Shown here in pieces: positions 4,676 to 63,974 of a stretch of 64,000 nt of DNA. This stretch comes from Schumannella luteola (GTDB lineage Bacteria; Actinomycetota; Actinomycetes; Actinomycetales; Microbacteriaceae). The notes below the pieces were generated by a model, which saw only the letters and a program-made list of their open reading frames with translations, was not told where the DNA came from and ran no database searches. The position numbers and the translations under genes are program-made. The stretch is taken from positions 3,286,001 to 3,350,000 of the forward strand of contig NZ_JACBZY010000001.1 of assembly GCF_013408685.1 (NCBI RefSeq), read 5' to 3'. The stretch's first letter is position 1. Every line of letters starts with the position of its first letter.

Positions 4676-5515
4676 ATGACGACGACCTTCCGCTGGCAGA
4701 ACCGCGAGCTGGTCGCGGCCGACGACTGCGAGGTCGTGCCGGCTCGGGTGGATGCGGCCGACTCCTGGCTGGTGGCTGACGGCCGCGCGCGCGGACTCGG
4801 CCTGCACCGCCAGCGCTTCCTCGACGCCCTGCCCGAGGAGTTCTGGGCGCTCGACCCGGAGGGCTTCTGGGACGCCGCGCTCGCGCTGCTGCCCCGCGAG
4901 GGCGACTGGTTCCCCCGGGTGGATGCGCGCACAGCCCGTGCGCCCGAGCTGATCTTCCGGCTGCGGCCGGCTCCCGAGCGTCGCGCGTCGATCCGCCTCG
5001 TCACGGCCGAGCGCGACCCGCGCACCGCTCCGCGCGCGAAGGGCCCTGATCTCGCCGCGATGACCGCGCTGCGCACCGCCGCGCAGGGGCTCGGCGCCGA
5101 CGAGGCCGTCGTGCTCGACGCCGACGGCTCCGTCGCCGAGGGCTCGACGACCTGCCTGCTCTGGTGGCGGGGCGACATGCTCTGTGTTCCCGAGGAGGCG
5201 ATCGAGCGGATCGACAGCGTGACCCTGCGCAGCATCCTCGCCCTCGCGACCGCACTCGGCATCGACGTGCTGCACGAGCGCGCCACGCCCGATGACCTCG
5301 ACGGGCTGGAGATCTGGGCGGTCAACGCGCTGCACGGCGTGCGCATCGTGACCGAGTGGGTCGGCGGCCCGGCTCCGGCGGAGCTGCCCGGACGCCGCGC
5401 CGCCTGGCAGACGCGCCTCGACGCCCTGCGCCGCCCGCTGCCGCTGCACGCGGTGCCGAGCGCTGTCGCCTCCCCCGCTTCGCCGGCGACGCCCGAGACC
5501 GGCGGGGCCGACTGA
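4676..5515 (+). CDS. pabC: Aminodeoxychorismate lyase (class IV aminotransferase fold)
   Basis: PabC releases pyruvate from aminodeoxychorismate to give p-aminobenzoate, using pyridoxal phosphate. The 279-residue product has the fold-type IV features: the likely cofactor lysine at 122 (RAKGPD), then GADEAVVLDADGSVAEGSTTCLLWW with Glu155 in the phosphate/cofactor region, and a C-terminal ALHGVRIV segment. The ATG at 4676 matches the start of conserved sequence; the much longer open frame upstream is antisense to pabB. It is divergent from pabB, and its TGA overlaps the ATG of the next gene by one base, so the two are probably co-transcribed. A D-amino-acid or branched-chain aminotransferase is possible but less likely next to pabB. 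Confidence 0.82.
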   Translation: MTTTFRWQNRELVAADDCEVVPARVDAADSWLVADGRARGLGLHRQRFLDALPEEFWALDPEGFWDAALALLPREGDWFPRVDARTARAPELIFRLRPAPERRASIRLVTAERDPRTAPRAKGPDLAAMTALRTAAQGLGADEAVVLDADGSVAEGSTTCLLWWRGDMLCVPEEAIERIDSVTLRSILALATALGIDVLHERATPDDLDGLEIWAVNALHGVRIVTEWVGGPAPAELPGRRAAWQTRLDALRRPLPLHAVPSAVASPASPATPETGGAD

Positions 5516-6210
5516 TGCTCCCGCACCTCGTCGAGACCACGGCCACAGTGGTCGCGACGGCCGGCACCGGCGGATTCGACCCGCTCGGCTGGCTGCTCGA
5601 CGTGGTGCAGTCGGTCGACCCGGTGCTGCGCATCCTGCTCTCGGCGGTCGCGATCTTCTGCGAGACGTCGATCCTGATCGGGCTCGTCGTGCCCGGCGAC
5701 ACGATCGTGCTCGTCTCGAGCACCGCGACCGCGAACGTCGCCGAGTACATCGGCCTGCTCGTCGCCGTCATCGTCGGCTCGCTCGGCGGCGAGAGCGTCG
5801 GGTTCCTGCTCGGCCGGCTGTTCGGGCCGAAGCTGCGGCACTCGCGACTCGGCCGCCGCATCGGCGAGAAGAACTGGATGCGCGCCGAGCGCTACCTCGA
5901 GCGCCGCGGCGGCCCCGCGGTGTTCCTGTCGCGCTTCCTGCCGGTGCTGCACTCGCTCGTGCCCGTCACGGTCGGCACGAGCGAGATGAGCTACCGCCGC
6001 TTCCTCGCCTGGACGACCCCGGCGTGCGTGCTCTGGGCGGGCGCCTACGTGACGGTCGGCTGGCTCGCCGCCGGCAGCTACCGTGAGCTCTCGACCCAGC
6101 TGCACTGGGCGGGTTACCTCTTCGTCGCCGTGATCGTGGTCTTCGTGATCGTCGTCGCAGTGGTGAAGAAGCTCATCGAGCGGGCCGAGCGCCGCCACCT
6201 CGACGACTGA
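5515..6210 (+). CDS. DedA-family membrane protein
   Basis: This 231-residue integral membrane protein has the DedA/SNARE-associated (VTT) domain. Visible signs are the re-entrant-type segment LIGLVVPGDTIVLVSS, the GGESVGFLLGRLFG motif, and RFLPVLHSLVPVTVGTSEMSYRRFLAWT, followed by two membrane helices and a basic tail. Members of this family act as proton-dependent lipid-carrier (undecaprenyl-phosphate or phospholipid) flippases or affect membrane homeostasis; the substrate here cannot be read from sequence. The ATG shares one base with the pabC stop (TGATG), which suggests translational coupling although no functional link is obvious. Confidence 0.88.
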   Translation: MLPHLVETTATVVATAGTGGFDPLGWLLDVVQSVDPVLRILLSAVAIFCETSILIGLVVPGDTIVLVSSTATANVAEYIGLLVAVIVGSLGGESVGFLLGRLFGPKLRHSRLGRRIGEKNWMRAERYLERRGGPAVFLSRFLPVLHSLVPVTVGTSEMSYRRFLAWTTPACVLWAGAYVTVGWLAAGSYRELSTQLHWAGYLFVAVIVVFVIVVAVVKKLIERAERRHLDD

Positions 6211-61355: not shown

Positions 61356-61363
61356 GCCCGGCC

Positions 61364-61431
61364 GCGAGCGCGGGGTTCCGTCCGAGCGCGGGGTGACGAC
61401 GCCCCGCCGTCGGAAAGGGGACCCCGCTCGG
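61364..61431. repeat. Dispersed palindromic repeat, copy 2
   Basis: A 68-base element homologous to that at 52075-52144, sharing GCGAGCGCG, CCGAGCGCGGGGTGACG and a right-hand CCCCGC arm. The inner stem (GCGGGG with CCCCGC, flanked by TCCGA/TCGGA) is less perfect than in copy 1. It sits between the convergent M3 peptidase and luciferase-like genes, so it may also serve as their terminator. Confidence 0.78.
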
Positions 61432-61432
61432 C

Positions 61433-62461
61433 TCAGGCCGGGGTCGAGGTCGGGGTCGGGGTCGGGGCGAGCGCCCGCACGGTGTCGAGGCGGTCGCTGA
61501 GGCGTGAACCCTGCACGGCGAGCACGATCTCGTCGGCTCCGGTGCGGGCGGTGAGCGCGTCGAGGGCGGCCCGCACCGTCGCCTCCGAGCCGACGGCCTG
61601 CTGGGCGAGGCGCGCATCCACCCACTCGGTCTCGGCGGCGGTCCAGGGGTGCTGCTCCGCCTCCTCGATCGTCGGGATGCGCGCGGGCAGCCGCCCGGTG
61701 CGCATGCGCAGCTGCACGAGGGCCTGCGGCAGCGCGCGGCGGCGGGCATCCGCGTCGTCGTCGCCGACGACGGTCGCGACCGCGACGGCGGAGCGCGGCT
61801 CGCGCAGCACGACCGAGGGCGTGAACGCCCGGCGGTAGAGGTCGAAGACCACGTCGGTCATCTCGCCGCCCGCGAAGTGGTGCGCGAAGGCGAAGGGCAG
61901 GCCCATCATCCCGGCGAGGCGCGCACTGAAGTCGCTCGAGCCGAGCAGCCACAGCTCGGGCGAGTCGCCCATGCCGGGGATCGCGACGATGCGGCCACCC
62001 TGCCCGCTCTCGAGCGGCGGGATCGTGCCGAAGTAGGCGAGCAGCTCGATCACCTGGTTCGGGAAGTCGTCGACCGTCTCGGCGCCGACGTTGCGCCGGA
62101 TCGCCGCCGACACGGTCGGATCGGTGCCCGCGGCGCGGCCGAGGCCGAGGTCGATGCGGTCGCCGTGCAGGGCGACGAGGGTGCCGAACTGCTCGGCGAT
62201 CACGAGCGAGGAGTGGTTGGGCAGCATGACCCCGCCCGAGCCGACGCGGATGCGCTCCGTCGCCGCCGCGATCGCGCCGATGAGCACGGCGGGGGCCGAG
62301 CTGGCGATCGAGGGCATGCCGTGGTGCTCGGCGACCCAGAAGCGGGAGTAGCCCGCCGCATCCGCCGCCTGCGCGACCGCGATGGTCTCGGCGAGGGCGG
62401 AGGCGTGGTCGCCGCCGCTGACGATGGGGGCGAGGTCGAGGATCGAGAGAGGTGCGCTCAC
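61433..62461 (-). CDS. Luciferase-like (LLM class) flavin-dependent oxidoreductase, MsnO8-like
   Basis: This 342-residue protein has a TIM barrel with SILDLAPI at the start (an MsnO8-type pattern), [47 protein letters not shown] and [15 protein letters not shown]. It is a different branch from the luciferase-like protein at 19906. Substrate and flavin source are unknown. GTG 62461 is chosen because it begins the conserved sequence; its ribosome-binding site is weak. The C-terminus is [10 protein letters not shown], from a short repeat. The 5' region contains one half of a 264-base direct repeat. Confidence 0.87.
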
Positions 62462-62765
62462 CCGGTCTGCAACGCCGTCGCGCCGCTCAGGATTCCGCGG
62501 GTCAGTCGGCGGAGCGGCGGCGCCGACCCGCACTGGTGAGCGGACTCGTCGTCCTCCGCTCTCCCTCCGCAACCCGGGTGCTTCGCAATTCAGGATCGGT
62601 TTCGCAATTCAGGATCAGCGGCGGGATCCGCACGGATAACGGCCGGAATCCCGGTCGGATCCTGAATTGCGCGGCGACGGATCCTGAATTGCGATCGTGC
62701 CGGCGAACTCACCGCACGACGCGTCGGGGTCAGACGCCCGGATCCCGCGCTCAGGATTCCGCCGA
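62462..62765. repeat. Repeat-rich spacer: 40-bp direct repeat flanking four copies of a 14-bp motif
   Basis: GCTCAGGATTCCGC begins a 40-base unit at 62485-62524 that recurs at 62749-62788 (36 of 40 identical, 264 bases apart). The right copy overlaps the 3' end of the BenE-type gene. Between them CGCAATTCAGGATC occurs at 62584-62597 and 62603-62616, and its complement GATCCTGAATTGCG at 62658-62671 and 62680-62693. The layout is two forward and two inverted copies, so a long hairpin is possible. No gene is seen in the 304-base spacer. Confidence 0.8.
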
Positions 62766-63974
62766 TCAGTCAGCGGCGCGGCGGCGCCCGACGCGAAGCA
62801 CGAGCATGATCGCGCCGCCGGCGAGGAGCCCCCAGACGGCCGAGCCGATGCCCGCGATGCTGATGCCCGAGGCGACCACCAGGAAGGTCGCGATCGCGAC
62901 GATGCGGTTCGGCACATCCTCCAGTGCGCCGGTGATCGCCGTGATGAGAGCGCCGAGCAGGGCGAGGCCGGCGACCGACTCGATGAGGATGGGCGGGCTC
63001 GCCCGCACGAGGGCTCCCGCCGCACCGGCGCCGAAGGCCAGCAGCAGGTAGGCGGCGCCGCCCGTGACCGCTGCGATCCAGCGGCGCTCGTGCGGCGTGT
63101 GCGAGTCGGGGCCGGCCATGATCGCGGCGGTCAGGGCCGAGAGGTTCACCTGGAAGCCGCCGAGCGTCGACGTCGCCGCCGACACGATGCCGGTCGAGGC
63201 GAGAAGGGTGCGGGTCGGGGCGGCCTCGTAGCCGAAGGCGCGCAGCACCGTGAATCCGGGGATCTGCTGGCCGGCCATCGTGACGAGGTACAGCGGCACT
63301 CCGAGGCTGACGATCAGCACCGGGTCGAAGGTCGGGGCCGTGAACGTGACGACCGGCGCGAGCGAGAGCCCCTCGGCCCAGTCCGGCCCGGCGGCGACCA
63401 GCACGGCGACGGCCGTCGCGACGACAGCCGCGGGCACCGCCCAGCGCGGCGCGAGCCGGCTCAGCACGAGCCAGATCACAATCGGCGGCAGCGCCAGCCA
63501 CGGATGCTCCACGGTCGCGGTGACCGGCGACACGCAGATCGGGAACAGGATGCCGGCGAGCATCGCGCTCGCGATGGGCTTCGGGATGCTGGTCGCCATC
63601 CGCGCGAGCCACGGCCAGAACCCGGTGATCGCCATGAGCGCCGAGGCCACGAGGAACGCCCCGACCGCGCCGGTGTAGTCGTGTCCCTTCGATGCGGCGC
63701 CGGCGGCGACGAGCACCGCGGCGCCCGGCGTCGACCAGGCGAAGGAGAGCGGCAGGCGGAAGCGCAGGCTGAGCACGATCGCGAGCAGCGCCTGCCCGAG
63801 GCAGAGCGCGAGCAGCCCCGATGCGGCCTCGGCGGCGGTCGCGCCGACGGCGGTGAGCCCCGCGATCACGAGCGCGAACGAGCTCGCGAAGCCGGTCACG
63901 GCGCCGACGAGTCCAGCGGCGATCGGGGCGACGAGGGACGAGGGCGCGGAGGCGGGGCGATCACCGGCTGTCAT
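62766..63974 (-). CDS. benE: BenE-family benzoate/proton symporter-like transporter
   Basis: This 402-residue membrane protein has 11-12 helices and matches BenE: SLVAPIAAGLVGAVTGFASSFALVI, FAWSTPGAAVLVAAG, KPIASAMLAGILFPICVSPV and AGQQIPGFTVLRAFGYEAAP, followed by GGFQVNLSALTAAIMAGPDSHTPHERRW. Family members take up benzoate with protons or relate to xanthine-type permeases. No benzoate degradation genes lie nearby, so the substrate is uncertain. ATG 63974 is 26 bases from the window edge. Its 3' end overlaps the right-hand direct repeat. Confidence 0.88.
   Translation of the reverse strand: MTAGDRPASAPSSLVAPIAAGLVGAVTGFASSFALVIAGLTAVGATAAEAASGLLALCLGQALLAIVLSLRFRLPLSFAWSTPGAAVLVAAGAASKGHDYTGAVGAFLVASALMAITGFWPWLARMATSIPKPIASAMLAGILFPICVSPVTATVEHPWLALPPIVIWLVLSRLAPRWAVPAAVVATAVAVLVAAGPDWAEGLSLAPVVTFTAPTFDPVLIVSLGVPLYLVTMAGQQIPGFTVLRAFGYEAAPTRTLLASTGIVSAATSTLGGFQVNLSALTAAIMAGPDSHTPHERRWIAAVTGGAAYLLLAFGAGAAGALVRASPPILIESVAGLALLGALITAITGALEDVPNRIVAIATFLVVASGISIAGIGSAVWGLLAGGAIMLVLRVGRRRAAD

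Follow-up and report, generated by a model that had tools for sequence, protein, structure and literature searches.

The four repeated words in the spacer between an LLM-class and a BenE-type gene form one copy of a dispersed repeat, of which the source genome holds 18 elements, 12 in the same family (F1) and 6 in sister families. Our leading, still tentative reading is that this repeat is REPIN-like, that its arms are read by a protein, and that a winged-helix nuclease is its likely partner. Among the guesses of the first-pass annotation, that of a non-autonomous element is the best supported, given the 12 F1 and 6 sister-family loci, the presence and absence of copies between species, and copies in coding sequence; taken as a whole, that earlier interpretation is partly supported.

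In the window, by which we mean the whole stretch of 64,000 nucleotides (G000:C1:3286001-3350000 of the source genome G000, 3,754,750 bases), a sequence search recovered CGCAATTCAGGATC exactly on the plus strand at 62584-62597 and 62603-62616, and its exact complement at 62658-62671 and 62680-62693. The reported quartet is thus confirmed, together with its spacings of 19 (left pair) and 22 (right pair) around a 41-base centre at 62617-62657. Words common to all four arms extend to 16 nt (62582-62597, 62601-62616, 62656-62671 and 62678-62693). The motif had been described as AT-richer than its surroundings, and its G+C content is indeed 50% vs 71.9% for the window; the flanking genes are as annotated, matching Bac_luciferase and BenE, both on the minus strand. 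With up to three mismatches allowed, the 14-mer occurs six times in the window, which is not above shuffles (mean 3.78). The features of the locus are as follows.

62582-62695, no strand: whole element, an F1 copy (L1, L2, 41-nt centre, R1', R2'), delimited by arm matches; 117/120 surrounding positions identical to the orthologue in sister species G004
62584-62597, plus strand: L1 arm, CGCAATTCAGGATC, exact match
62603-62616, plus strand: L2 arm, at 19 bp from L1 (the distance is 22 bp in the 6 other F1 copies with both left arms at no more than 3 mismatches)
62617-62657, no strand: centre, 41 nt, equal in length in 11/12 F1 copies and 42 nt in the other
62658-62671, minus strand: R1' arm, exact match
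62680-62693, minus strand: R2' arm, at 22 bp from R1' (as in 9/10 F1 copies with both right arms, window included, and 21 in the other)
61433-62461, minus strand: flanking gene, LLM-class (Bac_luciferase) monooxygenase by Pfam; predicted start about 120 bp from the element, which lies upstream
62766-63974, minus strand: flanking gene, BenE transporter by Pfam; stop about 72 bp from the element, which lies downstream

A 41-bp direct repeat (90% identical) at 62484-62524 and 62748-62788 flanks the element almost symmetrically, its right copy containing the 3' end of benE. It is present also at the G004 orthologue and absent from the other F1 copies, and was rejected as a general insertion mark because it occurs only at these two places. 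No target-site duplication was seen at the 12 F1 copies of the source genome or at the G004 orthologue, and four IS21-type loci (L201, L215, L228 and L202) carry no paired arms at their ends.

The whole-genome search proposed earlier returned 24 exact matches to the 14-mer and 34 with at most one mismatch, against none for the reversed-pattern control; it is these exact matches that exceed chance. The 24 of them are confined to 10 loci and always sit inside copies of one dispersed design, and the addition of inexact matches and pattern searches yields 12 F1 loci: 89k, 528k, 568k, 577k, 718k, 851k, 937k, 1117k, 1465k, 1466k, 2155k and the window copy at 3348k. One isolated match, at 876069 with one mismatch, appears to be a chance hit. 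The full design reads L1, 22 bp, L2, a 41-nt centre, R1', 22 bp and R2'; with 3 mismatches in 15 allowed, four arms are kept in 5/12 copies and three in 7/12. The distance from L1 to L2 is 22 bp in 6/7 copies that have both left arms, the window's 19 being the exception, and the inner arms with the centre measure 69 nt in 11/12 copies and 70 in the other. The F1 copies are homologous along their length and either old or fast-drifting, with arms and length preserved, since BLAST aligns 568k with 528k at 80% over 122 bp and other near-full-length pairs at 69-78%, and the 11 equal-length centres average 43% identity vs 28% when shuffled, no pair exceeding 59%. As even the most similar of these centres are only 59% identical, the copies in G000 are not recent duplicates, which counts against our leading reading.

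Further scans concerned other sequence collections. Plasmid and phage collections gave no match to the repeat above noise. A 14-mer scan across wider genome contigs was unhelpful (among the matches listed, at least 80 contigs had one match each), and a tandem-motif scan of viral contigs gave 33 mostly A+T-rich stretches, none with nearby inverted partners, which were read as chance.

Two sister families occur in the genus of the source: F2, with arms ACTCAGGAGATC and a length of 60 nt, and F3, with arms that are mostly ACTCAGGAGAAT and a length of 61 nt. Although the F2/F3 pattern permitted 54-68 nt, its 23 forward matches in 5 genomes measure 60 nt (15), 61 nt (7) or 62 nt (1). The sister-family elements of the source genome lie at 324k, 570.7k, 687.6k, 842.6k and 999k (pattern) and at 901k (BLAST). 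Genome G003 carries the variant arms GCAACTCAGCA...TGCTGAATTGC (L294, 209-270; L308, 3003-3065); the arm motif varies between species of one genus. The search of related genomes and of their spacing, likewise proposed at the outset, found the F1-type inner pattern in 21/299 genomes of the source's taxonomic family, at more than one place in 15/21 (the single-match genomes may include chance matches), with a reversed control of 0. The centre keeps a fixed length even as its sequence drifts. A looser related pattern was present in 3/297 genomes of the order, all three in the source's family, and in 0/274 genomes of the order's other families. Arms appear as two or three tandem 21-22-bp units within long palindromes at L300 (G264, 738-820) and L190 (G106, near 1400-1600). 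At L304 of G002, near-identical copies (750-812 and 1289-1350) lie either side of a gene of 139 aa that has no clear Pfam assignment, a sign of recent local copying.

The elements of the source genome favour gaps between convergent genes, and here as in some relatives most copies lie downstream of a gene. As judged with a simple codon-usage gene caller (1465k and 1466k hand-corrected for the ORF between them), 9 of the 18 are convergent, 7 tandem, 1 divergent (2155k) and 1 in a coding tail (89k). As background, 126 gaps of 100 bp or more comprise 13 convergent, 36 divergent and 77 tandem ones, and the convergent enrichment (9/18 vs 13/126) is significant at p = 2e-4. Besides the window, 6/11 F1 loci occupy convergent gaps (528, 568, 577, 718, 1117 and 1466 kb). 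In G261, 0/13 elements lie between divergent genes, and the 22 loci analysed in other genomes divide into 12 convergent, 6 tandem and 4 divergent ones. The rule that elements never lie between divergent genes, which holds in G261 and nearly in G000 (1/18), was dropped on account of these 4/22 loci. A common function of the neighbours of the G000 elements was not recognised from sequence, the Pfam run covering the window's neighbours only.

The source-genome elements are also biased towards the replication origin. The IS21 search with PF01695 also yielded, in each genome, one further match that turned out to be DnaA and located the origin; in G000, rpmH, dnaA and dnaN, recognised from their own sequences, lie at 765-773 kb and mark oriC, with DnaA boxes and a parS site in the same interval. 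The coding strand is mostly minus on one side of it and mostly plus on the other, with noise. Of the elements, 16/18 lie within 700 kb of oriC, a radius picked after the data had been seen; the Kolmogorov-Smirnov (KS) test, which is independent of the radius, gives p = 2.6e-5, p = 3e-4 after neighbours are merged (n = 15), and p = 0.004 for F1 alone. Among the matches listed for G261, 10 of the 12 forward matches lie within 641 kb of oriC (p = 1.5e-4); a match at 3205 kb, outside these 10, is also near oriC, and in order of position no match falls between 641 and 2783 kb. All four matches in G002 lie within 265 kb of oriC, three of them being neighbours; of the two in G106, one is about 42 kb and the other about 737 kb away from dnaA. 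In G165, contig coordinates place 13/16 matches 677 kb or more from dnaA; because the match-rich segment is syntenic with the oriC flanks of G261 and oriC of G165 lies on a separate 468-kb contig (C4), this genome was counted neither for nor against the bias, and the idea of universal origin clustering was tempered. At about 820-830 kb, contig C1 of G165 (L416) joins points on opposite sides of oriC in G261, which would reflect either a rearrangement or a misjoin.

The bias in G000, G261 and G002, and the preservation of arms and geometry, would suit a chromosome-organising site, at which a resident nucleoid or segregation protein reads the palindromes of the origin-proximal third and the nuclease link is secondary. 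We consider this unlikely, since turnover is fast (4/14 located G000 sites shared with the sister species), one of the two G106 matches lies as far as 737 kb from dnaA and the other about 42 kb, and an origin bias could also gain from replication dosage or from higher turnover near the terminus.

The turnover is evident from the comparison with G004, in which 14 of the G000 sites could be located, 2155k being left out of the count. Four are shared (window, 570.7k, 687.6k and 999k); in three, G004 has a copy of another family, F2, elsewhere in the corresponding gap (568k, 718k and 937k); five are absent (89k, 528k, 577k, 851k and 842.6k), one is a remnant (324k) and one a possible remnant (901k). 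For 1117k, 1465k and 1466k, no counterpart turned up where colinearity would place it in G004. One G004 copy sits within an MFS gene, at a place where G000 and G003 have no copy. Palindromes of different sequence apparently occupy equivalent convergent gaps at L277 (G003, 568k gap) and L279 (G004, 577k gap). At the three shared F2/F3 sites the arms, scored over 15 nt with 5 nt of flank on each side, are identical at 112/120 positions and the centres at 66/98, without an indel (Fisher p = 9e-7), a comparison of arms with centres that is biased towards arm conservation because sites whose arms can no longer be recognised drop out of the shared set. Between the window copy and its orthologue, 117/120 positions are identical, centre included.

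This bias takes some weight from our leading reading and adds it to the view that the elements are inert REP or MITE relics, old palindromes spread by an enzyme since lost and tolerated at gene 3' ends, with the nuclease merely hitch-hiking between them. Presence and absence between species, remnants, copies in a coding tail (89k) and inside the G004 MFS gene, a 3'-end location as for REPs, and the lack of RAYT in 22/23 genomes all agree with it. It nevertheless seems improbable, as relics should collect indels, yet the centre length is fixed despite largely unlike sequence, and the arms are kept above the centres at shared sites, subject to the ascertainment just described.

A hairpin RNA had been among the first suggestions. 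Predicted folding is far better than that of shuffles in 10/12 F1 copies (z -4.2 to -12.6), and the remaining two fold weakly (z -1.2 and -2.4). Within-copy covariation of the inner pairs was not above that of permuted copies in 6/7 sets, and in the seventh, G227, the permutations were as good in 148/5000 cases; the rows comprised 11/12 F1 copies, 14 F2 and 6 F3 of the 23 forward matches, and 13/16 in G165, 9/12 in G261, 5/5 in G083 and 7/9 in G227. For the window copy, no T-tract terminator was found in 62400-62850, and the three Rfam matches in 62300-62900 are all far below the gathering score. A 3' structure acting at the RNA level, as a bidirectional terminator or a stabiliser of mRNA ends between convergent genes, is quite unlikely: the hairpins and the convergent enrichment speak for it, whereas the missing covariation, terminator and Rfam family, the two weak folds, and the copies in divergent gaps (2155k and 4/22 loci elsewhere) and within genes speak against it.

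The looping paired operator suggested earlier, if taken as a switch that serves LLM and benE alone, is very improbable. The four identical words at fixed spacing and the conservation of the window copy in G004 (117/120) would fit it, but it is largely refuted by the recurrence of the design at 11 further loci, of which 6 sit in convergent gaps, and by neighbours without a recognised common function. The preserved arms and geometry nevertheless make a DNA-binding protein likely.

For our leading reading, that of a REPIN-like repeat with a protein partner, the gene content of neighbouring copies provides a candidate. The RAYT transposase (PF01797) has no match in G000 and is missing from 22/23 genomes tested; the sole match, in G001, has an internal stop, and both element patterns find nothing in that genome. 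An element-nuclease-element layout occurs in four genomes of two genera: G000 (L175, with the nuclease gene at 5240-6151), G003 (L293), G165 (L298) and G103 (L464). Seven gene-holding gaps below 1.3 kb between neighbouring copies are known, of which 4 hold a member of one nuclease family of about 300 aa. The remaining three, two in G002 and one in G004, contain genes outside this family. The family was noticed after the fact, and its four cases, from two genera, are not fully independent. The G004 case is the LLM gene, which is bracketed by F2 and F1 copies owing to an extra F2 copy at G004:C8:102929 (L282); this copy occupies the gap that separates the M3 peptidase gene from the LLM gene, equivalent to window positions 61356-61432, a gap without a copy in G000. 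The bracketing copies themselves are imperfect: 1465k is without R2', the two in G000 are dissimilar in the centre (34%), and each of those in G103 has one degenerate arm (read by eye), the right one overlapping the gene's end. Two further homologues are not bracketed like the four: in G317 the gene lies about 700 bp from a copy, and in G225 it has a copy 1.2 kb upstream on one side and, on the other, an arm pair of wider spacing inside its own 3' part.

Domain searches covered the proteins of G000, G003 and G165. The N-terminus is AbiEi-like, with PF13338 above the cut-off in G003 and weak in G000, and PADLOC AbiEi models match it in all three tested proteins (E 0.003 to 1e-5). The C-terminus is of the DUF559/MTES_1575 Vsr type, PF04480 being above the cut-off in G003 and below it in the others, so that the family assignment for G000 and G165 is weak. 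Residues E185, D212, E222 and D224 are invariant among the three sequences. The nuclease has no NCBIfam match and no good match to a solved structure. A profile of the family found no further member in 312 family loci (2.05 Mb, overlaps included), which comprise 56 stretches (810 kb) picked irrespective of the nuclease as well as 400 kb of G261. Another 20 stretches, located around copies, contained the homologues of G103 and G317, already known, and that of G225, which was new. Plasmids gave four weak matches, two of them annotated as AbiEi-family antitoxin proteins. MTES_1575 has been described as a novel Vsr-type restriction endonuclease (PMC3710099). In the open-licence literature, as judged by titles and the beginnings of abstracts, no paper on these repeats or on a repeat-nuclease pairing was found.

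In our reading, each element consists of two inverted conserved arms, doubled in F1 as units of about 22 bp, which a drifting centre holds at a fixed distance. Most likely one protein binds the arms, and they do not act as a switch for neighbouring genes. The likely partner would be the protein of about 300 aa with its predicted AbiEi-like winged-helix N-terminus and Vsr/DUF559-type nuclease C-terminus, which we infer to bind the arms much as AbiEi recognises 23-bp repeats in pairs (PMC7319586). If RAYT and REPINs are a guide, the bracketed nuclease gene would be the source unit and the dispersed copies, the window's included, its non-autonomous derivatives. More speculatively, the nuclease might act on the palindromes and so copy or homogenise them, the role ascribed to RAYT for REPINs (PMC3116915). 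A bolder version, which we regard as doubtful, is that of a new REPIN-like class in which a bracketed protein with a winged helix and a Vsr-fold PD-(D/E)XK nuclease replaces the tyrosine (HUH) transposase, and whose repeats, spread around the origin in one family, are retained because arms and geometry serve the chromosome. The bracketed gene supplies a testable partner for the repeat family, and a link to it would show palindromic repeats tied to a nuclease other than RAYT; in at least two genomes, the family also offers sites grouped around the origin.

Several known systems resemble these elements in part. MITEs are short, non-autonomous, dispersed inverted-repeat elements. The present repeats are likewise short, dispersed, non-autonomous and built of inverted repeats; they differ in showing no target-site duplication, and the four IS21-type loci have no paired arms at their ends. 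The parS and Noc sites are palindromic and concentrated around oriC. Our elements share the palindromic form and the position around oriC, but their sequence is unrelated to that of the parS site at the G000 origin, and their design is two-armed and about 60-114 bp long.

REPs tagged GTAG or CGTC lie mainly downstream of genes, between convergent or unidirectional genes, with some inside ORFs; they are units of 20-40 bp with an unpaired tag, the CGTC families having stems of 8-9 bp and no dedicated transposase (PMC3733652). The main text of that paper contains no terms for Clavibacter, Leifsonia, Microbacter- or Actinobacter-. The present elements are similar in their gene-end location and, as in CGTC REPs, in the missing dedicated transposase, but they are not tagged short-stem units of 20-40 bp: F2 often starts with GACG and ends with CGTC, and its stem is far longer.

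REPINs are described as extragenic, hairpin-forming REP doublets in which two highly conserved inverted 16-bp words stand at a fixed distance, separated by a less conserved spacer whose length is important (PMC3116915). Conserved inverted words, a spacer of constant length and a hairpin-forming strand (10/12 F1 copies at z of -4 or below) are shared by the window-type elements. The differences are the lack of RAYT in 22/23 tested genomes, the 18 elements counted as against hundreds of REPINs, the doubled F1 arms, the compensatory spacer changes, which were not detected, and the origin-proximal bias in G000, G261 and G002.

Finally, AbiEi binds two 23-bp inverted repeats and Rv2827c binds four, the latter arranged as inverted pairs within about 131 bp, with gaps of 3, 13 and 4 bp, in the promoter of one toxin-antitoxin operon (PMC7319586). 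The unit length (23 bp vs about 22 here), the inverted pairs and the AbiEi-like N-terminus of the candidate reader are common to both systems, whereas the present units are scattered over many loci and their candidate reader carries a fused nuclease domain.
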